The notes beneath the pieces are model-generated. The model saw only the letters and a program-made list of their open reading frames with translations, ran no database searches and was not told the origin of the DNA. Position numbers and translations under genes: made by a program. Source: a virus. Taken from it: a stretch of 64,000 nt of DNA. Positions 34,293-46,820 of this stretch are shown here, one piece after another. Location: positions 45,094-109,093 of the IMG/VR virus record IMGVR_UViG_3300037805_000525. The stretch is one strand, 5' to 3'. Numbering within the stretch: the first letter of the stretch is position 1; every line of letters starts with the position of its first letter.

Positions 34293-35543
34293 ATGTCCGA
34301 CGTTGAAATGACGACCGAAGAAGAAGCCGCCACCGAAATCACCGAGCTTGAGATCCCGCCCGAAGAAGAGCTGCTGCTCGTTGAGCACGGCACCGAGTGG
34401 ATCGCGCTGGGCGACATCGACACCGAAACCTTCGTGAACCCGCGCGGTGACGTGGGTGATTTGACCGAACTCAAGCAGTCCCTCCTTGCCTCTGGCGTGC
34501 TCGTCCCGCTGAGCGTGGTGATCATCAGCCCAACCGGCATCCTCGACGAGGACAACCAGGCGGAAGCCGTACTGCTGCTCGACGGTCAGCGCCGCCTCGC
34601 TGCGATGCGGGAGCTCCACGACGGCATCAACGAGCACAACGAGCGGGTTGCCCGCGATGGCGGCTTCGACGACCTCGACAGCACGTACCTGTTCGTGGTT
34701 GACGACGGCAAGGGCAACATGGTGCCCAACCCCGACGTGATCCCGCAGGCGTTCTCGGAGCAGTCCTGCAGCGTGAGCATCGCGCGCGCCTGGAGCGAGG
34801 AGCTCCAGAGCGAGATGCTCGTGCGCGCAGCGCTCATCAACGAGAAGCGTGAGTCGATGACCGACTACGACCGCTACTGCTACGTGTGCCGCCTGTCCGA
34901 GCTGGGCATGCGCCAGGTCGACATCGGCAAGAAGCTCACTCGCGCACAGGCGTGGGTGTCCGGCGCGGTCAGCGTCAAGAAGAACGGCTCCAGCGTGCTG
35001 ATCACCGCGATCAAGGAGGGCAAGGTCTCGCTCCGTCGTGGCTTCGAGATCGCCAAGCACAACAAGCGCGAGCAGGCTGCGCTCGTCGCAGGCAAGGCGC
35101 CGGCGAAGAAGTCGACCTTCCGCTCAAGCCGTGAGATCTACGCCGACGTCGTGGCGATGAGCAACCCCGAGGCCTACGTCGATGTTGACGAGGCGCATCG
35201 CCAGATGATGATTCGTACGTTCCGCTACATCATGGGCGATGCGGGCGTGACGCTCGAGCAGCTGATGTACCCGCCCGAGCCCGAGAACGATGTGGCCACG
35301 TCCACGAAGTCCCTGCTCGACCTGATCCCCGAGGCACGTCGTCGGGCGCCCAAGGCGAAGGTCACGCCCAAGAAGCCCGCAACGAAGAAGGCGCCGAAGA
35401 AGGCCGCGCCGAAGAAGGCCGCACCGAAGAAGGACGCACCGAAGAAGGTCGCCCCCAAGGCGAAGGCCCCCGCCAGCACTGCCAAGCCCGCGCGCCCTCG
35501 CCGGGCCGCGCGCCCTCGCCGGACCAAGCCCGCCGCTGAGTAA
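34293..35543 (+). CDS. ParB-like DNA-binding protein with histone H1-like tail
   Basis: 416 aa. An acidic N-terminus (1-30) leads into a ParB/Srx domain: residues 49-75 ('NPRGDVGDLTELKQSLLASG') and 95-107 ('LLLDGQRRLAAMR') match the ParB box region. Residues about 203-230 ('MRQVDIGKKLTRAQAWVSGA') are a KorB/ParB-type helix-turn-helix. Residues about 348-416 repeat Lys-Lys-Ala-Pro units like eukaryotic H1 or bacterial HC1 tails. Roles could be partition, nucleoid organisation or transcription control. Codon use is strongly biased, as in the capsid and sheath genes, suggesting high expression. Own promoter-like element and strong terminator. Confidence 0.8.
   Translation: MSDVEMTTEEEAATEITELEIPPEEELLLVEHGTEWIALGDIDTETFVNPRGDVGDLTELKQSLLASGVLVPLSVVIISPTGILDEDNQAEAVLLLDGQRRLAAMRELHDGINEHNERVARDGGFDDLDSTYLFVVDDGKGNMVPNPDVIPQAFSEQSCSVSIARAWSEELQSEMLVRAALINEKRESMTDYDRYCYVCRLSELGMRQVDIGKKLTRAQAWVSGAVSVKKNGSSVLITAIKEGKVSLRRGFEIAKHNKREQAALVAGKAPAKKSTFRSSREIYADVVAMSNPEAYVDVDEAHRQMMIRTFRYIMGDAGVTLEQLMYPPEPENDVATSTKSLLDLIPEARRRAPKAKVTPKKPATKKAPKKAAPKKAAPKKDAPKKVAPKAKAPASTAKPARPRRAARPRRTKPAAE
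35384..35462. repeat. 15-bp imperfect repeats encoding the Lys/Ala/Pro tail
   Basis: Units of about 15 bp of the type CCGAAGAAGGCCGCG, four to five copies, encode repeated P-K-K-A-A. In-frame length variation is expected. Confidence 0.7.
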
Positions 35544-35566
35544 GGCCTCGGCAACCACCTAGAAGG

Positions 35567-35602
35567 GGCCGCGATTCTCACGAGTCGCGGCCTTTTTTTT
35601 TT
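35567..35602 (+). terminator. Strong intrinsic terminator
   Basis: Perfect 8-bp stem GGCCGCGA / TCGCGGCC with 10-base loop, followed by ten T. It separates the ParB-like gene from the AAA+ operon. Confidence 0.95.
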
Positions 35603-35630: not shown

Positions 35631-37316
35631 ATGGACGCCAGACTCGAACTACGTAACCGCCTGCGGGCGATTCACCCACTCATCGCAATCCAAACCCTGG
35701 AAGAGGAGCGGACGATACTGGAGATCGTACGCATGCTCGAGCAGGAGGCCGCCGGACTCGAGGAGGCGCGTGCGTACGACATCTTCCAGTGGGACGTGAT
35801 CAACGCACTACGCCCTATCCAGTCGGTAACGCCCGCACTGCTTCCGGGTAAGAAGAAAGACGTGCGTCCACTACTCGATATCGTAGACCGCGCTATCTCC
35901 ACTGAGTACGCCGGACATCTGGTCATCTTTGTGAAGGACGCCTACGAGATCTTCATCGCCCCCACCACGGCGACCTCGCTGCGGCGCGTGCTCAAGACAA
36001 TGGTCAACCGTGACCCCGAGCGAAAGCTGTACCTCACGGTCATCCTGCTGGACCACACGATGCCAGCGCACCCGACACTTGAAGAGGACATGGTCGCGAT
36101 CGAGTGGCCGTTGCCCACACGTGAGGAGCTCGGTGAGTGCTTCTCATCGGAGGCGCTACTCTCGCTGGTTGGCGACGAGCTGCGTGAAGGCCTCGCGTTT
36201 TTCGATGACGATGTCAAGGCGGGCAGCGAGTGCGAATCTGCGCTGGAGCACATTCAGAACCTCGCGGATGCGGCGCAAGGGCTCAAGATGTCCGAGGCCA
36301 AGCACGCGTTCGTGCTGGCGTTCGGGTCGGAGGCGGACCTCGGCGGTGTGTCCCCGCGGCATATCGTCAAGGCGAAGGAGCAGCTGATTGGCCGCAGTGG
36401 TCTTCTGACGTTCCACCAGCCTGAGGGGACGTTGGCGGACGTTGGTGGCCTGGACCTGCTGAAGGGTTGGCTGCGCGAGCGGCGGCGCGCGTTCGGCCCG
36501 GACGCCGCAGCCTTCGGACTCCCCTCGCCAAAGGCTGTACTCCTGGTGGGCCCGCCGGGTACAGGCAAGAGCATCGTCCCGCGACTTGTAGGCGCTGAGT
36601 GGGGCATGCCCGTTCTGCAGCTAGACATGGGGCAGCTGATGAACTCCATGCTCGGGCAGTCCGAGGCCAACTTGCGTGACGCGCTCCGAACTGCTGAGGC
36701 GGCTGCGCCGGCAATCCTGTGGTTCGACGAGATCGAGAAGGCGATAGGCACGGGTGGCGACCGAGACGGCGGCACCAGCGGACGAATACTTGCTACCTGG
36801 CTCACCTGGATGGCCGAGAAGGAGGCGCCGGTGTTTGTCATCGCGAGCGCCAACGACCCCTTGAAGCTCCCCGCGGAGGTGACCCGCGTCGGCCGATTTG
36901 ATCGGACGTTCTACGTTGGGTTCCCGAATACGAAGGAGCGCGCAGAGATTTTCGCAGTACACTTGCGAAAACGTGGCCGGGACCCGGACGACTTCAACCT
37001 GCAGCTTCTGGCAAGCCGCTCTGACGGATTCAGCGGCGCTGAGATTGAGGGCGCTATTATTGGCGCGCTCTTCAAAGCGTTTGACCGGAATGCGCCCGAC
37101 GTGGAAATGGTCGACCTACTTGACGAGTGCGCGGGACTTACCCCACTGAGCGTGTCAAACGCGGAACAGCTCAGGCCTATGATCGAGTGGGCGGAGAGCA
37201 ACGCGAAGCACGCAAGTGTCCACGACACACCGGCTACAGTGGCGTCCGGTGGGCGCGGTCGTAGCCGCGTTGTCTCGCGCCGAAACCGGCTGGCGATGAA
37301 CAAAAAGATCGGCTAG
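35631..37316 (+). CDS. Ycf46-type AAA+ ATPase
   Basis: 561 aa from ATG 35631; a TTG 30 bp upstream lies inside the terminator tail. Walker A 'GPPGTGKS' at 307-314, Walker B 'ILWFDE' at 362-367, sensor 'ASAND' near 406-409, arginine finger region 'RVGRFDR' at 419-425, and the AAA lid to about 490. The N-terminal 250 residues ('IHPLIAIQTLEEERTILEIV') match the helical/RecA-like N-domain of Ycf46, a SpoVK/Vps4-type family known from plastids and bacteria. It heads the operon with RecA-like, DUF2997, radical SAM and DUF1257 genes. Substrate unknown; probably remodels a protein complex. Confidence 0.85.
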   Translation: MDARLELRNRLRAIHPLIAIQTLEEERTILEIVRMLEQEAAGLEEARAYDIFQWDVINALRPIQSVTPALLPGKKKDVRPLLDIVDRAISTEYAGHLVIFVKDAYEIFIAPTTATSLRRVLKTMVNRDPERKLYLTVILLDHTMPAHPTLEEDMVAIEWPLPTREELGECFSSEALLSLVGDELREGLAFFDDDVKAGSECESALEHIQNLADAAQGLKMSEAKHAFVLAFGSEADLGGVSPRHIVKAKEQLIGRSGLLTFHQPEGTLADVGGLDLLKGWLRERRRAFGPDAAAFGLPSPKAVLLVGPPGTGKSIVPRLVGAEWGMPVLQLDMGQLMNSMLGQSEANLRDALRTAEAAAPAILWFDEIEKAIGTGGDRDGGTSGRILATWLTWMAEKEAPVFVIASANDPLKLPAEVTRVGRFDRTFYVGFPNTKERAEIFAVHLRKRGRDPDDFNLQLLASRSDGFSGAEIEGAIIGALFKAFDRNAPDVEMVDLLDECAGLTPLSVSNAEQLRPMIEWAESNAKHASVHDTPATVASGGRGRSRVVSRRNRLAMNKKIG

Positions 37317-37318
37317 CA

Positions 37319-38236
37319 ATGCGCAGACGTCTATGCGGGATCCCGTCGCTCGACGCACACGGCGGGCTGTCACCCGGCGTCGTAGAGCTCTACGGTGCTG
37401 CGGATGACTTCATGGATGAGACCGCGTGGTACCTAGTAGAGGCACATGACGGGCCGTGCGCCTGGGTGGCGGCCGCGGATTCGGATACCACCGGGATCTC
37501 GCGCACGGATGTGGCACACATACGGCCGGTTACTAGCGAGGCCGCCATCGAGGCCACAGACTTACTCCTGGGAGTTACTGGGATGTTGGTCGTGGTCGAC
37601 CGGATGACGGCGCTACCGCCACACGCATACATGCAGCAGCTGGAAGTGTTGGACAGGTACGAAGCGCAGATCAAACTGCTGTCGCACGCAATGATCATCT
37701 GGCGTGCGTCAGCTGAGGCGCACGGGTCCACGCTCATCCTGATCAATGAGCTGCGCTACTCCAGGGACAACGGAATTCGACCGTTCCTACCCGCCGCGAC
37801 AGCCGGGCGTACGTGCGCGCGGATACGCTGTAGGCGTGGGACGACCGAGGCACGCTACGAGCTCCCGTACATGTTGCGGGTGCATGTCGACTGGCAGGCC
37901 CACGGTACATTCGGGTCGTCTGAGCTAGAGTTCTTCGCAGGGAGGGTGCCATCACCAGGGTGGCAGTACTACAGGATACTGATCCCGCTTCCTTGCGTAG
38001 AGCGCAGGGGCACGTATTCGTCGTTCACGTTCGACGGGGAATCCGTGCGGTACGGACCAGGTAAGCTGGACATGGCCGACCAGATGGCCGCACACGGAAC
38101 ATTCGACAACATTCGTGAGTCTTGCCTGACTCACCTAAGGGAGCTTCATGAAATTCCGAATCACTATAACCAAGGCCGGCGACGTAAAGCAGGACATCGA
38201 AAACGTATCCGGGCAAAGCTGCCAAGGCGAAGGTGA
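37319..38236 (+). CDS. RecA-like protein with degenerate Walker A
   Basis: 305 aa. Its order of motifs follows RecA: 'PSLDAHGGLSPGVVELYG' (9-26) like the strand before RecA's P-loop, then 'AADDFMDET' in place of G-x4-GKT, then 'GPCAWVAAADS' (45-55), Walker-B-like 'MLVVVDRMTAL' (89-99), helix 'YEAQIKLLSHAMIIW', and 'STLILINELRY' (137-147) like 'TVIFINQIR' with its sensor. The missing Lys-Thr means ATP hydrolysis is unlikely. It starts 2 bp after the Ycf46-type gene, and its basic C-terminus overlaps the DUF2997 gene by 89 bp. A structural partner of an active filament or of the AAA+ ring is possible. Confidence 0.65.
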   Translation: MRRRLCGIPSLDAHGGLSPGVVELYGAADDFMDETAWYLVEAHDGPCAWVAAADSDTTGISRTDVAHIRPVTSEAAIEATDLLLGVTGMLVVVDRMTALPPHAYMQQLEVLDRYEAQIKLLSHAMIIWRASAEAHGSTLILINELRYSRDNGIRPFLPAATAGRTCARIRCRRGTTEARYELPYMLRVHVDWQAHGTFGSSELEFFAGRVPSPGWQYYRILIPLPCVERRGTYSSFTFDGESVRYGPGKLDMADQMAAHGTFDNIRESCLTHLRELHEIPNHYNQGRRRKAGHRKRIRAKLPRRR

Positions 38237-38348
38237 GCGCTTCGCCAACCACATGATCGGTACTACGGGCCACATCGTGGACGAGACGCTCAAGCCCGAG
38301 TTCTACTTGGCTGAGGAAGAGGACGTCACGCAGGGCACGCTGGTATGA
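38148..38348 (+). CDS. DUF2997 family small protein
   Basis: 66 aa with GGGAG 5 bases before the ATG. The pattern 'ITITKAGDVKQDIENVSGQSC' then 'KPEFY' near the C-terminus matches DUF2997, short proteins in which a conserved G-x-x-C and a final pE-Y occur. DUF2997 genes are known to sit beside DUF1257/Ycf35 genes in cyanobacteria and other bacteria. The conserved Cys24 could be modified or bind metal. ATGA overlap with the radical SAM gene. Confidence 0.75.
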   Translation: MKFRITITKAGDVKQDIENVSGQSCQGEGERFANHMIGTTGHIVDETLKPEFYLAEEEDVTQGTLV

Positions 38349-38926
38349 CACCGGGCCCTAGCATCGCCGAGGTCAACGTCCCGGCGGCAGGTGCGCTCGG
38401 CGAGGGCGTGATCGCGACGGTACATTTTGACGGCTGCACCCTCGCGTGCGCTGGGTGCTGGAATAAACACCTTTGGCCGCACAAGGCGTGCGACGAGTCC
38501 CTGGGGTCTGTCGCTAAGGCCGTGGCTGCGAAGCTGGCTTGTACACGCCTTGACGGCATTGTATGGAGCGGTGGTGAGCCTCTCCAGTACCCCCACTTCC
38601 CAGCATTCTGCCAGCAGGTGCTAATCGAGCTCAACCGGCCTAAGGTGTGGACGTTTCTGTACACGGGCTACGCGGGCTGCGAGCTGCCGCGCATCCGCTT
38701 CAGCGACTCTGTCCTGCGGATGTGTGGTGTGGACGGGCTGTGTGGCGGGAGGTACAACCCAGAGAAGGTAGAAGGCGCACGCTGGCCAGCAACTTCAACG
38801 AACCAGGAGGTTGTGTGGCTCACCGACAGAGCGCGTGGGAAGCTGCGCAAGACCTCAGTGACCCGCATCACCGCAGCCACAACAACACAGCTCGGGGCTG
38901 ACGGCCCCCTGACGGAGGTACTATGA
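38345..38926 (+). CDS. NrdG-like radical SAM protein
   Basis: 193 aa. The cluster motif C-x3-C-x2-C is at Cys31, Cys35 and Cys38 ('GCTLACAGCWN'), followed by 'WSGGEPLQYP' and 'TFLYTGYAG', the layout of glycyl-radical activases such as NrdG. It should bind a 4Fe-4S cluster and cleave S-adenosylmethionine. No anaerobic ribonucleotide reductase is in this window, and the gene is coupled to DUF2997 and DUF1257 genes on both sides, so its target may be one of those proteins rather than NrdD. Function not established. Confidence 0.85.
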   Translation: MTPGPSIAEVNVPAAGALGEGVIATVHFDGCTLACAGCWNKHLWPHKACDESLGSVAKAVAAKLACTRLDGIVWSGGEPLQYPHFPAFCQQVLIELNRPKVWTFLYTGYAGCELPRIRFSDSVLRMCGVDGLCGGRYNPEKVEGARWPATSTNQEVVWLTDRARGKLRKTSVTRITAATTTQLGADGPLTEVL

Positions 38927-39369
38927 GCCACCAGGTTAAGCTAGTCACGGCAATCGACGACATTGACGACCTTGAGACGATGCTCGAGGAAGTGTTCGGG
39001 CTGAAGTGCGTTCGCAACGGCATCGGCAAGGGCTACTACAAGAAGGATGTGGTCAACTACGACCTGATGCTGGTGTCCGACTTTAAGCGGGACTTCGGGT
39101 TCAGCGCGGTGGACGGGAAGATGCAGCTGCAGCTGGACAGCATGGACCATGGCCGCCTGGACGAGCTGCTGCGCGGTAAGGTCGACGAGGCGTACGCGCC
39201 CGTCGCACAGGTTGCCACCCGGTACAAGCCAATAGAGATGCTCACCATGTGCTACCAGGCGCACAAAGCAGTCACGTACCACGAGCAGCTCGGCCGGAGC
39301 ATTGAGATGTCAGTGCTTGGCGGCGTCCTGGAGATCGTTGCTGAGGACGCGGGGGCCGTTCGAATCTGA
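38923..39369 (+). CDS. DUF1257 (Ycf35-like) protein
   Basis: 148 aa, starting 'MSH' as Ycf35 does, overlapping the radical SAM stop (ATGA). The features shared with Ycf35 are the acidic helix after residue 10, the 'DFGFSAVDGKMQLQLD' strand pair (compare 'YDIGFSWNG...ELVAD'), a tyrosine-containing helix and the terminal 'GGVLEIVAEDAG' strand. Ycf35/DUF1257 has no proven biochemical role. A terminator follows, so this ends the Ycf46 operon. Confidence 0.6.
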   Translation: MSHQVKLVTAIDDIDDLETMLEEVFGLKCVRNGIGKGYYKKDVVNYDLMLVSDFKRDFGFSAVDGKMQLQLDSMDHGRLDELLRGKVDEAYAPVAQVATRYKPIEMLTMCYQAHKAVTYHEQLGRSIEMSVLGGVLEIVAEDAGAVRI

Positions 39370-39385
39370 CAGCGCCTTCGGGCGG

Positions 39386-39410
39386 AGAGGCGCCCACGCG
39401 CCTCTTTTTT
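39386..39410 (+). terminator. Intrinsic terminator of the Ycf46 operon
   Basis: Perfect 8-bp stem AGAGGCGC / GCGCCTCT with CCAC loop and six T. Confidence 0.9.
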
Positions 39411-39424
39411 AGCGCACACCCAAT

Positions 39425-39439
39425 TATCACACTGTGATA
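39425..39439. promoter_or_regulatory. Palindromic operator-like site before the lysis-like genes
   Basis: TATCACACTGTGATA, symmetry extending to 21 bp (39422-39442 approximately). It lies 30 bp before the ATG at 39470, and its right half TGTGATAAT could itself serve as an extended -10 element. Confidence 0.75.
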
Positions 39440-39469
39440 ATTTGCTACGCACGTAACAGGAGGACAGTG

Positions 39470-39841
39470 ATGGTTTTTCTCACCCTCAAGAAGCTCGCGT
39501 CTAATGCATGGGATGGGCTACGCCAAGTGCCTGGGTGGTTAGTGTTCGTGGTGTTAGTCGCGTTCGCGACGCTGGCGTACCTGTACAGGAGGCAAGTGCT
39601 CCTGGTGCGCGTTGCGGAGATCCGACGCGAGGAGATGGACATAGAGCGCGAGCTTGCGGTCAGGCGCAAAGATGCGGCAGGCCGCGCAGATGCCCGCGTG
39701 GACGCGGCCGAAGTTGCGCTCAAGAAGCGCGTCAAGGAGATCACTGAGGTCAAGCTGAAGATCAACGCACAACGCGCTGAGGGGATTACGGGGCTAGCTG
39801 ACGCCTGGAACGAGCGTATCCGCAGGCGGCGTAAGTCGTGA
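39470..39841 (+). CDS. Inner-membrane spanin-like protein
   Basis: 123 aa with AGGAGGA 5 bases before the ATG. One transmembrane helix at about 20-37 ('WLVFVVLVAFATLAYLY') is followed by a highly charged coiled coil to the end, the layout of Rz-type i-spanins that join inner and outer membranes in lysis of Gram-negative hosts. No enzyme motif. The next gene, overlapping by GTGA, is the natural partner. A general membrane-anchored coiled coil cannot be excluded. Confidence 0.55.
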   Translation: MVFLTLKKLASNAWDGLRQVPGWLVFVVLVAFATLAYLYRRQVLLVRVAEIRREEMDIERELAVRRKDAAGRADARVDAAEVALKKRVKEITEVKLKINAQRAEGITGLADAWNERIRRRRKS

Positions 39842-40248
39842 GGGCGCTCACGCTACTACTTACGCTCAGTACGGCCCACGCACAAGTCGGCGGGCTACCC
39901 TGCGAAGAGGCCATCCCGATGACGGTACCGTGTGCCGGGATCCTGCTTCCCGAAGTGGACACGTACGAGGGCTTCGAGTGTCTTGAGGTGACCATCCCGG
40001 AGATGAAGGCGCAGACCGAGCACCGCGACCTCCTGCACGCGGTGGAGGTCAAGGAGCTCGCAGATAGCATCTTCGCGTGCGAGGACGCGCGCGCGAAGAC
40101 TAAGGCGCTCCTAAAGAAGGCCCTCGGGACGGTACCCGTGCCCCCGAAGGAGCCCTGGTACCGCGCAACGTGGGTGGAGGTGACTGTAGTGGTGGGTGCG
40201 TTTGTTCTGGGCGGGGTCGCGGTTCATTACATAAAGAAGGCCGACTAG
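39838..40248 (+). CDS. Exported membrane-anchored protein, possible spanin partner
   Basis: 136 aa from GTG. An N-terminal hydrophobic segment ending 'STAHAQ' looks like a signal peptide with a signal peptidase I site rather than a lipobox. A helical Cys-containing middle part follows, and a C-terminal transmembrane helix ('VEVTVVVGAFVLGGVAVHYI') ends in 'KKAD'. Four cysteines in the middle could form disulphides outside the cytoplasm. Coupled to the spanin-like gene, so a role in lysis is likely but unproven. Confidence 0.55.
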   Translation: MRALTLLLTLSTAHAQVGGLPCEEAIPMTVPCAGILLPEVDTYEGFECLEVTIPEMKAQTEHRDLLHAVEVKELADSIFACEDARAKTKALLKKALGTVPVPPKEPWYRATWVEVTVVVGAFVLGGVAVHYIKKAD

Positions 40249-40257
40249 AGGTGTGGC

Positions 40258-40563
40258 CTACTCGGGCTTGAAGTTTTCAAGGTAGGCGCGCACTTTGGCA
40301 TAGATGATCGTAGAGAACATCCCACCAACACCGCCAGCACACAGCCGAAGAAGGCTGAAGTCCGCATCTGACGACTCCGGAATGAGGCCAATTGCCAACC
40401 CAAAGCTGATCGCCGCCACGCGAATCAGCCAGTCGCTCATCCACTCAGCGAGGAATCGCTTGAATAGCGGCTTCACCATCTCGACGCCGAAGCCGGCAAA
40501 CAAGCCGGCAACCACTACAAGCTGGAGGGCGGCGCCGTAGTTGTCTGGTCGTAGTATCTCCAT
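40258..40563 (-). CDS. Small membrane protein, holin-like
   Basis: 101 aa with GGGAG 5 bases before the ATG. Three hydrophobic segments (about 10-27, 45-61 and 70-90) separated by short charged loops, a layout seen in class I holins. It is convergent with the spanin-like pair, forming a lysis-like cluster, although transcribed with the late tail genes (TGAATG overlap). Could also be a tail membrane protein. Confidence 0.5.
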   Translation of the reverse strand: MEILRPDNYGAALQLVVVAGLFAGFGVEMVKPLFKRFLAEWMSDWLIRVAAISFGLAIGLIPESSDADFSLLRLCAGGVGGMFSTIIYAKVRAYLENFKPE

Positions 40564-42578: not shown

Positions 42579-45500
42579 CTAGAACTGCAGCTCGACGTCG
42601 ATGCCGTCCAACGCGTCCCAAGGTGTGACCCGGACGACCACCTCAATGCGGCCGCGCTCGGTAGGCGATGCCTGCAGGCTAATGATCTCGAAGCCCTGCA
42701 CGCGGTTGCCTTCACCACTGTACTTCTGCTGCAAGCTGCCCAACGCCAAGCTGAGCAGGTCCATCGTGTTCCCGGTCAGGTTCTTGCCGACCATGAACCC
42801 AGTGCCGATCCGGTAGATCAGGTTGGACATGAAGTCTACCTGCCGGGTCACGCCGGGCTGCCGGGTATCCGCGTCGGACAGGTCCGTCGTGAGGGCGTGC
42901 CGGATGATCACCGGGCCGTTGGTGCTGTCCTGGATGAGCCAGCAGATGCCGCCCCCCGCCGCGAGGGCCATCTGGCCCCGCTCAACGAAGACGTCACTCG
43001 AGCCGAGCACACGGGAGAACCCCTGAAGGACGTAGCCCGTCAGGTTCTTCTCGGGGTCGGTGGACGCGATGACAGCTGCGAGTGCGGCAGCCGCGTAGAA
43101 GCCAGGAACGATCACATCCTGGCCGGCGTAGCTGGTGACGAGCAACTCTGGCTGGAGCGCCCACATGCGGCGACTGCCGAGACCGGTACCCATGTCGGAG
43201 AGCGCCTGGCAGATGAGCCCGCGCCCCGTCGAGGTGGTCTTGTCCAAAGCACCCTGTCGGATGTTGACCGACGTCGTGTCGCCGTCGGCCGGGAATACCG
43301 CGAGGTACTCCGAACCAAGGTTGTAGAAGGCGTCGTCGTTCCCGTCGCTGCCCGGGCCGCTACCGGGGTTGAACGCGTCGGTCAGGTCGATCTGGATCGT
43401 GCTGGCGCTGACGAGCGCAGACACCCGGTAGCGGTACGCGTCGCCACCAAAGTCCAGGTAGATCCCCTGTGCGGGCGAGTAGACCTCGCCGATGCCACCA
43501 ACGATTGCGACACCATCGGCACCAATCAACCCGTTGAGTGCCAACGCGAGGTTGACCCCCACCTCGGTGAACTCGAGGTTGTACTTCGACCCACCGACCG
43601 ACTCGGCTGTAGCCACGCCGGAGAACGCGAGCAGCGGAGTCTTCTCGGTCGGCATGTCGAAGGTTGCGATTGCCGTGCGCCAGCGGTGCTCCGACGCGGT
43701 GGACATCGCCTCGACGTGCACCTTGTACAGGCCAGCGATCTGCTGGTCCGTGGTCAGTGGCGCGAGGACGTAGGCGTCCTTCGTCTCCAAGAACTCCAGC
43801 GCGCGCTGGTGGGACTCGTAGGTGCCGTAGGGCGCGTCCGCCGTGACCTCGTCGATGCCCAACGCCTGGATGTTGGTCGTGACGTTGTTGGCGAACGCGA
43901 TCGACAGCGCGAACGCGAGGGGGTTCTCGGGGCTGATGGGCCCAAAGAGTGCGTCGACCTCAGCCAGGCTATTGAACGACCACAGGACCGGGTCGGAACC
44001 CGAGGCGCTGGCGTCGAGGCGGAGAGCCTTGTACCCGATGTAGACCGGGTTGAGTGCGCCGAGGATGGCGAACCCTGCGGCGTCTCGAACGGCGCCGGCC
44101 TTGACCACGAACAGCTCCACGGCGTCGTACGGGACGACCTCGGCAGCCATTGGGGGGCTGTCCTCGTCGAGCTTGTACGAGCGGCTGTACCAGCTGGTCA
44201 GCTCGGCGCCGGCCTGGACCGAGTACTCGCTCAGCACGAGGACGGCACCCGAGTAGGTGTTGCCGCCCACCACGTGGTCTTCGATCCCAACAATGCGCCC
44301 GAGCACGCTGCCGTTGTCGTAGAGCATGTCGCCAGCCACGAGTGCCTCGTGGCCACCCGAGAACAGGTAGTTCTCGTAGGTGTGCAACGCGCCGCTGATG
44401 TTTGGTGCGCCCCGGCGGTAGTCCACCCCGAGCGTGGTGGTGCCCGACACTGCGTACAGCGTGGCTGCGAAACCCGCAACCGACCCCTGCAGCGACAGCT
44501 GGATGTCACGCGCCTGGTAGTCGAAGGAGCTCGCCGCGGACAGGCACATGCCCGTCAGGTCGACGTAACTGGTCGGCGAGAGGCCCGCAGGCAGCACGCA
44601 GTTCGAAAGCGAGTTCGAGATACTCTCTACGCGGAGAGCAAAGTTCGTGCCCGCATCGGTGATCACCGCGTCCACGCCGGACACGTTCGTCGCGTACGTA
44701 TCGAACAGCGTGTTGTCGATCGCGAAAATCGACGCAGCGGTCCCGACTTCGGTGAGCTCGAACTGTTGGCCGGCGGTGTCGGTGATGCTGTGCAGCACCA
44801 GGTACGAGACACCGTTGATGGTGGCCTCCGCAAACATCATGTAGCTGTCTAGGATCGCGTTCTTTGCCAGCCCTGCGCCTGCACCGTTCAGCGCCGCAAC
44901 CAGCGCGGTCAGCGTGATGCCCTGCCAGGTGACTGTCAGCGTGTCCGTCAGCAAAGGCGCAGGCATGCTGATCACCAGATCGAGTGCGCCTGCGTCCACC
45001 ATGGACAGGAGCGCCGGGTCTGAGATCGGGATGAAGATGGCGCCGCCAACCTTCGCATTCGTGAGCTGGAACACGGTGGAGCCCTGAACGAGCCCCTGCT
45101 CCATCGGAATGGCGGCCTGCGTGTTGATCTCTGTCGAGGACAGGGTCAGCTCGTGGATGCGTCCGTTGACGTCAAACACGGGTGACAGCGCTGCGACGGC
45201 GTACGACTCGGAGCCCGCGTACGAGCCGCCGAACAGCTTCTCGAACACAATGCTGTTCGAAGCGCGGAGCGCGATCGACGTGTCCCGTGTCGTTCCGCCA
45301 AGGGAGACGATGCGGAGCACATCGACCGACGATGCGCCCGTGTCGCCCGCCGCGACGCTGTGGGACGGGAACACCGCGTCGATCGAAGCGGTTGCGCCGA
45401 CGAGACCCGCGAGGGCCACAGTCGTGATGGCGCCAGACAACACGAAGCGCTGCCACTCGCCGCCGTCGACAGACACCTCGAGCCACTGGCCCTCGACGCC

Positions 45501-46820
45501 GAGCGCAGCCGCTGTGTCCGCAATCCCGACCTTCACGCAGCCGAGCACTCCAGCGCCGACCGTGAGGCCCTGCCCGAAGTTGACTGGGTCGGACCCATTG
45601 TTCAGGTAGAACGAGCGCGCGGGCGCGTCGTCCATGAAGTGCGTGCCCGCCGCGTCAGCGTGGTACGTGACCGAGACGGCCATGTGCAGTGCCTGGTCGA
45701 GCCCAGTCGCCGTAGCGATCGCGGTGGCGAGGTCCTCGAAGTACGGGCCAGAGCCGTTGTTGTCACCCTTGGTGATGGTGAGCGTAGACCCCGCCCACGC
45801 CGCGGACACGGTCCCTGCGAGAGGGGCGCCGCCGTCGACAAACGCGACTTGCAGCGCGTTTCCGTCGTCCCCCACGTAGTTGCCAGCGGTGTTGTCATCC
45901 GCGAGGCGGCCGAGACCCTGTGCGGTGGCCGTGAGGTAGTTGTTCCCGCTGACGTCCGGGTAGACCACGGAGCCTCCGAGAAACGACTCTCCCAGAGGGA
46001 TGATCACACTGGCGTCGTTCCCCAGGTGGAGTACACGGTTCGTGGACGGCCCAAGCTGCTGGAGCCCGTGCAGCGCCGACCGGGCGTTGCCGAGCGCTGG
46101 CGCTTCGCGGCGGTCCGTGGCCACGTTTACAACGTGCGAGGGACCGCCGATGTGCGAGTTCACGTTGATCGCGCTGTCCTTGGACAGCTGCGAGATGACC
46201 CGGTTGGACAGGATGTACATCTCTGCGGCGTCTGCGTCGAAGACGATGTCGTCTCGGTCGGCGAGGGGCGAGGGCACGGAGTTGTACGGGATCTCCAGGT
46301 TGATGCCCTCGTACCCGTCCTTGCCGAACACCGCGTCGTCAACGTCGGCGGTGAGGTTGAGCGCGGCGTACGCGCTCACGGCGGGCGGCGGCACAGTGAT
46401 CAGCTTGATCGACGCGGACGAACCCTTTGACACGGTCTCGAGGACCAGCTTGCCGTCGGAGATCTGGGCGGTCACGCCGGACAGTGCGGCGCGGATGGTG
46501 GACAGCACCAAGTTGTGTGCGAGTCCGACGCCGCCGATGGTGTTGGGGAAGTTCACGGCGACGGCGGGGTTACCGTTCACCGACACCAGGAGCGACGCGC
46601 CCGCGACGAGCACAGGCTCAGCGATCGCGACCGAGGAGATCACGCGGGCTGCGGCGGTGACCAACGCGTCCACGTTCGCGGAGCCGTTGGTGTCGATGGG
46701 GGCTACGATCTGATACAGCGCTCCGACGATGCAGGCTGGCTGCGTGGGGTCCGCGACGGTCACTTCGTCAGGTACGTTGACCTGGGTGACCAGCGTGGAG
46801 GGCCTCTGTAGTTCCGACAT
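42579..46820 (-). CDS. Tail sheath protein, exceptionally large
   Basis: 1413 aa against about 350-700 for most sheaths. The C-terminus ('GRIEVVVRVTPWDALDGIDV') and the region before it ('DPEKNLTGYVLQGFSRVLGS', 'AAGGGICWLIQDSTNGPVII', 'RQVDFMSNLIYRIGTGFMVG') match the conserved sheath core. The N-terminus 'STLVTQVNVPDEVTVADPTQ' also fits. The middle 800 or so residues are beta-rich and probably inserted surface domains. Contracts to drive the tube through the envelope. Strong codon bias indicates high expression. Followed by tube candidates. Confidence 0.85.
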   Translation of the reverse strand: MSELQRPSTLVTQVNVPDEVTVADPTQPACIVGALYQIVAPIDTNGSANVDALVTAAARVISSVAIAEPVLVAGASLLVSVNGNPAVAVNFPNTIGGVGLAHNLVLSTIRAALSGVTAQISDGKLVLETVSKGSSASIKLITVPPPAVSAYAALNLTADVDDAVFGKDGYEGINLEIPYNSVPSPLADRDDIVFDADAAEMYILSNRVISQLSKDSAINVNSHIGGPSHVVNVATDRREAPALGNARSALHGLQQLGPSTNRVLHLGNDASVIIPLGESFLGGSVVYPDVSGNNYLTATAQGLGRLADDNTAGNYVGDDGNALQVAFVDGGAPLAGTVSAAWAGSTLTITKGDNNGSGPYFEDLATAIATATGLDQALHMAVSVTYHADAAGTHFMDDAPARSFYLNNGSDPVNFGQGLTVGAGVLGCVKVGIADTAAALGVEGQWLEVSVDGGEWQRFVLSGAITTVALAGLVGATASIDAVFPSHSVAAGDTGASSVDVLRIVSLGGTTRDTSIALRASNSIVFEKLFGGSYAGSESYAVAALSPVFDVNGRIHELTLSSTEINTQAAIPMEQGLVQGSTVFQLTNAKVGGAIFIPISDPALLSMVDAGALDLVISMPAPLLTDTLTVTWQGITLTALVAALNGAGAGLAKNAILDSYMMFAEATINGVSYLVLHSITDTAGQQFELTEVGTAASIFAIDNTLFDTYATNVSGVDAVITDAGTNFALRVESISNSLSNCVLPAGLSPTSYVDLTGMCLSAASSFDYQARDIQLSLQGSVAGFAATLYAVSGTTTLGVDYRRGAPNISGALHTYENYLFSGGHEALVAGDMLYDNGSVLGRIVGIEDHVVGGNTYSGAVLVLSEYSVQAGAELTSWYSRSYKLDEDSPPMAAEVVPYDAVELFVVKAGAVRDAAGFAILGALNPVYIGYKALRLDASASGSDPVLWSFNSLAEVDALFGPISPENPLAFALSIAFANNVTTNIQALGIDEVTADAPYGTYESHQRALEFLETKDAYVLAPLTTDQQIAGLYKVHVEAMSTASEHRWRTAIATFDMPTEKTPLLAFSGVATAESVGGSKYNLEFTEVGVNLALALNGLIGADGVAIVGGIGEVYSPAQGIYLDFGGDAYRYRVSALVSASTIQIDLTDAFNPGSGPGSDGNDDAFYNLGSEYLAVFPADGDTTSVNIRQGALDKTTSTGRGLICQALSDMGTGLGSRRMWALQPELLVTSYAGQDVIVPGFYAAAALAAVIASTDPEKNLTGYVLQGFSRVLGSSDVFVERGQMALAAGGGICWLIQDSTNGPVIIRHALTTDLSDADTRQPGVTRQVDFMSNLIYRIGTGFMVGKNLTGNTMDLLSLALGSLQQKYSGEGNRVQGFEIISLQASPTERGRIEVVVRVTPWDALDGIDVELQF

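Follow-up and report, generated by a model that had tools for sequence, protein, structure and literature searches.

The DNA analysed here, referred to as the window, is a 64,000-nt stretch of a virus genome (positions 45,094-109,093 of the IMG/VR virus record IMGVR_UViG_3300037805_000525); the full record of 109 kb also encodes a terminase and a tail-sheath gene. Between positions 35631 and 39369, the window carries an operon of five plus-strand genes in the order AAA - RecA-like - DUF2997 - radical S-adenosylmethionine (SAM) enzyme - DUF1257-like. Genome comparisons show that four of these families (AAA+ ATPase, DUF1257, DUF2997 and radical SAM) belong together over phages, plasmids and chromosomes. 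Two of them include genes known from photosynthetic organisms: red-algal chloroplast genomes and cyanobacteria have kept ycf46 (the AAA+ protein) and ycf35 (DUF1257). The genes of the operon are the following:

35631..37316, plus strand: Ycf46-type AAA+ ATPase of 561 amino acids (aa), with an N-terminal domain of ~260 aa, AAA module and lid
37319..38236, plus strand: RecA-like protein of 305 aa, Walker A lost, Walker B strand VVVD retained
38148..38348, plus strand: DUF2997 protein of 66 aa, PF11211 above cut-off, conserved G11, G22 and C25
38345..38926, plus strand: NrdG-like radical SAM enzyme of 193 aa, CTLACAGC (CxxxCxxC) and GGEP motifs
38923..39369, plus strand: probable divergent DUF1257 (Ycf35-like) protein of 148 aa, assigned by leave-window-out profile, AlphaFold2 model and syntenic relatives

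A preliminary description of this DNA had spoken of five overlapping genes, which holds for three of the junctions. The DUF2997 gene starts 89 nt within the 3' end of the RecA-like gene, in another frame and with a Shine-Dalgarno sequence (AAGGGAG) upstream, and the DUF2997/radical SAM and radical SAM/DUF1257-like junctions are 4-nt ATGA overlaps each. The AAA and RecA-like genes, in contrast, are separated by a 2-nt gap.

Profile searches supported all five family assignments of that description, DUF1257 being the weakest and below the Pfam threshold. By sequence similarity, the first protein is clearly a Ycf46-type AAA+ ATPase. It matches Pfam AAA (E=2e-28) plus the lid as well as phrog_8638 across residues 6-543, nearly the full length (E=3e-113). 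Alignment A3 shows its motifs to be intact: GPPGTGKS as Walker A, DE as Walker B, N408 as the sensor, and R419/R422. Full-length matches at 33-40% were obtained over 80 bacterial and archaeal loci. Residues 11-529, including the N-terminal domain, match chromosomal loci of Prochlorococcus and Leptolyngbya (E about 1e-84); the matched cyanobacterial loci have no gene names, so that the Ycf46 label is one of orthology. The nearest solved AAA modules are those of Cdc48/p97.

The DUF2997 protein scores 26.4 bits against PF11211 (cut-off 24.1) and E=3.8e-10 against a leave-window-out profile, and the Gly-x-x-Cys of the family is present as G22 and C25. The radical SAM enzyme matches Fer4_12 (7.6e-16) and its own leave-window-out profile (E=3.8e-19); CxxxCxxC and GGEP are kept, and alignment A4 shows no variation at C31, C35, C38 and G76-P79. 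For the fifth protein, Pfam PF06868 gave no hit, and even an E limit of 10 brought up no match in the record. A leave-window-out profile made from other DUF1257 proteins and run over 11,193 open reading frames gave a modest match (E=0.0013, 18.4 bits, model positions 8-85 of 141; best reversed decoy 0.36), and also scored the fifth genes of the syntenic relatives described below. The AlphaFold2 model of the window protein reached a predicted local distance difference test score (pLDDT) of 85.5, compared to 91.8 for a canonical DUF1257 protein; both have the element order E-H-E-E-E-E-H-H-E-E and an MS(H) start, but the input alignment of the window model held DUF1257 rows and the model is thus not fully independent. 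The profile, the confident model and the relatives together support the assignment of the fifth protein as a divergent DUF1257.

We then asked how these families are distributed. Among the 80 bacterial and archaeal AAA loci, all three partners (DUF1257, DUF2997, radical SAM) were found in 23, DUF1257 plus DUF2997 in five, DUF1257 only in nine, DUF2997 plus radical SAM in two, radical SAM only in three and no partner in 38. All four families also occur in 16 of 80 viral loci, some of them duplicates; the profiles had been iterated on the bacterial and archaeal loci, so that the genome counts are not blind, whereas the viral ones are. All 96 partner genes share the strand of the AAA gene, the median gap being 171 bp, and pairwise association is strong (p 4e-6 to 1e-12). 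In 41 full sets, phage and plasmid sets included, the pairwise distances of the four families correlate (r 0.58-0.79; reached in 0/2000 permutations), a value to which shared host descent contributes.

The set also travels on mobile elements. A Paenibacillus plasmid carries AAA-DUF1257-DUF2997-radical SAM, Rhodococcus and Arthrobacter plasmids carry AAA-141 aa-DUF2997-HhH-radical SAM, and a Treponema plasmid has a radical SAM-AAA pair; on cyanobacterial plasmids AAA, DUF2997 and DUF1257 are found together. The Paenibacillus polymyxa set on pPPM1a (L045), whose radical SAM gene is annotated as a 4Fe-4S single cluster protein, resembles that of the window in having the four core families next to each other and on the same strand, but differs in gene order and in lacking the RecA-like gene, and its AAA and radical SAM proteins are 33% and 30% identical to those of the window. 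Phages of Rhodobacter, Rhizobium, Agrobacterium and Pseudomonas have AAA plus DUF1257-like and DUF2997-like genes, with no radical SAM gene seen nearby. Cultured carriers include Rhodobacter phage RcTiptonus, again with no radical SAM gene nearby, and the Bacillus paralicheniformis plasmid pBP1. Four viral loci (L195, L149, L159, L164; some are fragments) contain the set but show no detectable match to the window terminase, so that apparently unrelated viruses hold it. L149 and L150 are the two copies of a large inverted duplicate near the ends of one 170,948-bp contig, which represents either terminal inverted repeats or an assembly artefact.

Some further AAA loci have other neighbors. Hsp70-like genes are present in five AAA/DUF1257/DUF2997 loci from five phyla (L064, L099, L106, L128, L042), accompanied by GrpE in L042; several of these loci also encode a large WD40-like protein. 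In Treponema/Spirochaete loci (L043:5064-8557, L058, L067), the radical SAM-AAA pair has baseplate-like genes as neighbors (in L043, one for 'phage baseplate assembly protein V'), an arrangement as in contractile injection or prophage clusters. A second phage set with the same AAA family combines AAA with a ~260 aa 'LRPGLLVSLKTSVRGN' protein and a ~113 aa 'M(P/A)CDT...SHDGGxTWH' protein (L007-L018, L026-L040) and ranges from mycobacteriophage Krili (Corndogvirus; L004:6596-10345) to environmental contigs. The L007-L040 phage set was dropped as support, as its neighbors were not recognised as DUF1257 or DUF2997.

Relatives of the window operon were found by scanning viral contigs with the AAA alignment, followed by profiles built without the window. 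Scans of viral contigs with the single RecA-like, radical SAM and DUF1257 proteins gave no matches, because patterns suited to close relatives do not reach such divergent proteins, and the DUF2997 alignment has no conserved stretch from which a pattern could be taken; the AAA alignment was the only one to succeed. The five-gene order is kept in five related phages (L152, L153, L165, L175, L213; L178 and L179 are near-copies of L175), where two small genes follow the operon, the first of them spanin-like in L153. The terminases of the five phages are 39-44% identical to that of the window, the operon proteins merely 18-39%. Between L165 and L175, nonsynonymous divergence (dN) is 0.04-0.24 and synonymous divergence (dS) ranges from 1.9 to saturated for every gene, so that each operon gene is under purifying selection. 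The proposal that these genes form one unit is supported by the same order in five related phages, co-occurrence across phyla and correlated divergence.

The RecA-like protein has a narrower distribution: we recognised no such gene in the bacterial, plasmid and other-phage sets examined. In the window, it stays below the cut-off for Pfam RecA (PF00154, 1.6e-4), but residues 15-163 match single solved RecA chains (about 3e-5), with residue 15 aligned to RecA 55. It thus shares the RecA core from residue 55 onward with RecA/UvsX recombinases, but lacks their N-terminal domain and the Walker A motif (GxxxxGK[ST]), which is replaced by GAADDFMDET. By these comparisons, the second protein is RecA-derived with Walker A lost. 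The term degenerate, as used in the preliminary description, fits this phage but not the lineage: Walker A is lost in the window and L213 only and intact in L152, L153, L165 and L175, and the three of these four proteins that we tested (L152, L153, L165) pass Pfam RecA at 34-60 bits. Because the records of L153, L165 and L175 (G025, G026, G027) each encode a second, longer RecA/UvsX, the RecA-like protein of the operon is a specialised extra paralogue.

The operon is flanked by two intrinsic terminators, and a ParB-like gene lies upstream:

34293..35543, plus strand: ParB-like protein of 416 aa (TIGR00180 E=2e-6, phrog_6218 7e-8), split from the AAA gene by a terminator
35561..35602, plus strand: intrinsic terminator preceding the operon, hairpin of -26.8 kcal/mol (z -6.2) followed by a T run
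39385..39412, plus strand: intrinsic terminator after the operon, hairpin of -22.9 kcal/mol (z -3.7) with a T6 tail

Both terminators come from a hairpin-energy analysis; a consensus terminator scan recovered neither. With two strong terminators, the description of the operon as isolated and self-contained is correct for the window. It does not extend to most relatives: the terminator preceding the AAA gene is a local feature, because the AAA genes of L152, L153, L165 and L175 are each directly adjoined by an upstream gene. This upstream gene is ParB-like in the two phages tested (L152, L153). The ParB-like protein of the window has a long Ala/Pro/Lys-rich tail.

All parts of the set are known families of unexplained role, and the association of DUF2997, DUF1257 and a [4Fe-4S] protein is already published for cyanobacteria. 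In Synechocystis, DUF2997 and Ycf35 are encoded in an operon with Fed7, a [4Fe-4S] ferredoxin that acts under redox and iron stress and has a DnaJ-domain protein as binding partner (PMC4284462). As in the phage, both DUFs are encoded with a small [4Fe-4S] protein, but the ferredoxin replaces the radical SAM enzyme, Ycf46 is located outside the operon and there is no RecA-like protein. Ycf46 itself (Slr0374) belongs to the stress-responsive operon slr0373-slr0374-slr0376 with a role in CO2 utilisation (Jiang 2015, as cited in PMC7496141 and PMC7283877), and loss of Ycf46 lowers the activity of the carbonic anhydrase EcaB (PMC7496141). Slr0374 is of the same AAA+ family by the full-length similarity to cyanobacterial chromosomal copies, several of which are followed by a DUF1257 gene; its context is photosynthetic, however, and no adjacent radical SAM or DUF2997 gene was seen in the cyanobacterial chromosomal loci. 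For the four-gene set with the radical SAM enzyme, its spread over phages and plasmids and the RecA-like subunit, we found no description in the open-access papers searched, the subscription journals being mostly outside the search. The comparisons show that the ycf46 and ycf35 families, together with DUF2997 and the radical SAM enzyme, make up a co-inherited module found in bacteria and archaea, on plasmids and in several lineages of phages. The operon thereby connects two orphan genes of cyanobacteria and chloroplasts with radical or iron-sulphur chemistry. Since a compact copy from a phage or plasmid can be expressed as a whole in a laboratory strain, the function of these orphan genes becomes open to direct tests.

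As to this function, we tentatively lean towards an ATP-driven protein-remodelling complex of AAA+, DUF1257 and DUF2997 proteins with a [4Fe-4S] radical or redox subunit. The AAA+ ring would use ATP for remodelling or loading a client protein or complex, and DUF1257 and DUF2997 would form the part of it that serves as adaptor or faces the client. The [4Fe-4S] radical SAM enzyme may carry out a one-electron or radical step on the complex or client, a place that ferredoxin Fed7 would hold in cyanobacteria. The RecA-derived subunit would be an addition of this phage lineage, probably with a catalytic role in most relatives but a purely structural one in the window. Remodelling is suggested by the intact AAA motifs, the proximity to Cdc48/p97, the Hsp70 and GrpE genes in some loci and the binding of Fed7 to a DnaJ-domain protein; the link to iron-sulphur chemistry is suggested by the cyanobacterial DUF2997-DUF1257(ycf35)-fed7 operon.

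Several observations weigh against this assignment. The 38 Ycf46-type loci without any partner nearby indicate that the AAA protein works unlinked in many hosts. Several sets have no nearby Fe-S protein, and a motif search for a ferredoxin beside sets without radical SAM outside cyanobacteria found none. The link to Hsp70 is limited to five loci. Neither DUF2997 nor DUF1257 has a residue clearly tied to the presence of the radical SAM gene: one DUF1257 tyrosine notably differs, but it is commoner without radical SAM (p 2e-4, uncorrected and confounded by lineage). Searches with the DUF1257 model by Foldseek and VIA-align turned up no solved structure that was informative (Foldseek E of 0.08 at best, highest Z 5.1); the best fold matches, TBP-like C-terminal domains of CPSF73/IntS11, PGM domain 4 and START-like folds, are below the typical scores of models without a clear match. 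Finally, the ParB-like and RecA-like neighbors in this phage lineage would equally suit a DNA-related role.

The preliminary description had proposed instead that the radical SAM enzyme may modify DUF2997, with its conserved Cys (Cys25), or DUF1257, and that the AAA+ ring assembles or loads the product; the flanking Gly22 and the C-terminal (T/K)xE(Y/F)Y tail of DUF2997 are further candidate sites. Enzymes of the NrdG/PFL-activase-like family act on protein glycines, DUF2997 is small and adjoins the radical SAM gene, and the two co-occur strongly (p 1e-12). Moreover, G11 and C25 are invariant in 61 DUF2997 sequences (C 61/61) and G22 is found in 60 of them. However, 18 of these proteins come from loci without a radical SAM gene in the fetched stretch, and there G11 and C25 are still invariant and G22 is kept in 17. 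Cysteine conservation is therefore no pointer to the radical SAM enzyme, being equally strict without it, and the proposed modification of this residue received no specific support. The tail tyrosine differs weakly between loci with and without radical SAM (p 0.04, uncorrected), and no canonical glycyl-radical motif was seen by eye in DUF2997. In the loci without a nearby gene, a radical SAM enzyme encoded elsewhere could act on DUF2997. On balance, we consider such a modification doubtful.

The operon could also be a DNA-transaction module in this lineage, with the ParB-like, AAA+ and RecA-like proteins acting on phage DNA; the small proteins would be loaders, and sensing would fall to the Fe-S enzyme. 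The ParB-like gene that abuts the AAA gene in relatives and the intact Walker A of the RecA-like ATPase there fit such a role. But the confinement of the RecA-like protein to this lineage among the sets examined, the loss of its active site in the window, the separate recombinase in three relatives and the recurrence of the core partners without DNA genes make it unlikely. We rate as somewhat less likely again another scheme, in which the NrdG-like enzyme would put a radical or a radical-derived covalent change on DUF2997 (or DUF1257), the Ycf46 ring would load, reactivate or recycle the product, and chloroplast and cyanobacterial Ycf46/Ycf35 would be the remnant of an ancient system for loading a radical or redox cofactor.

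A phage-borne defence or counter-defence system seems improbable. The mobile distribution over phages and plasmids is in agreement with it, and the AAA module alone (residues 294-522) matches IetA from PADLOC with 77 bits, a generic AAA similarity that is also seen with TRIP13. An IetAS system would have IetA similarity across the protein and an IetS neighbor, but only the AAA module matches and PADLOC gave no hit for the other operon proteins; in addition, chromosomes from many phyla carry the set as well. The role in phage fitness in defended hosts that had been considered therefore gains no backing from PADLOC families beyond this generic similarity.

NrdG is the top-scoring family for every radical SAM enzyme of the set tested (81-119 bits in one series of searches), and two Gastranaerophilales copies reach the equivalog cut-off of 126.1 (134 and 126.2). 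The window enzyme is NrdG/PFL-activase-like in its CxxxCxxC and GGEP motifs, size and best NCBIfam profile (NrdG, TIGR02491), but with 62.6 bits it does not reach this cut-off, and it has no NrdD partner. NrdD was found neither in the window's record (G000; possibly incomplete) nor in nine other phage records, nor in nine of 23 host genomes carrying the set, many of which are metagenome assemblies, although the nine include a 10-Mb Actinomadura isolate. In eight other genomes, NrdD is accompanied by an NrdG of its own, separate from the radical SAM enzyme of the set. In a tree, most enzymes of the sets group apart from NrdD-linked NrdG, the exceptions being a second lineage (Planctomycete/Verrucomicrobial) and a Bacillus plasmid copy (L046); the window enzyme joins the main group, but its branch is long and its exact placement unsure. 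Judged from these comparisons, the radical SAM enzyme retains its catalytic motifs yet does not appear to serve NrdD, as had been argued from the lack of a nearby nrdD, and it is extremely improbable that it is an NrdG activating a host or phage ribonucleotide reductase.

Downstream of the operon, at positions 39434-40563, the window contains lysis-like genes for a membrane-anchored coiled coil, a small protein with a C-terminal transmembrane segment and a reverse-strand holin-like protein; the coiled-coil gene is called spanin-like through its L153 relative. In several cultured phages, the AAA set is likewise located near endolysin, holin or spanin genes. Further downstream (42579-46820, minus strand), a 1413 aa protein, the last ~180 residues of which match phage tail sheath (phrog_279, 1e-7), would be an unusually large sheath.

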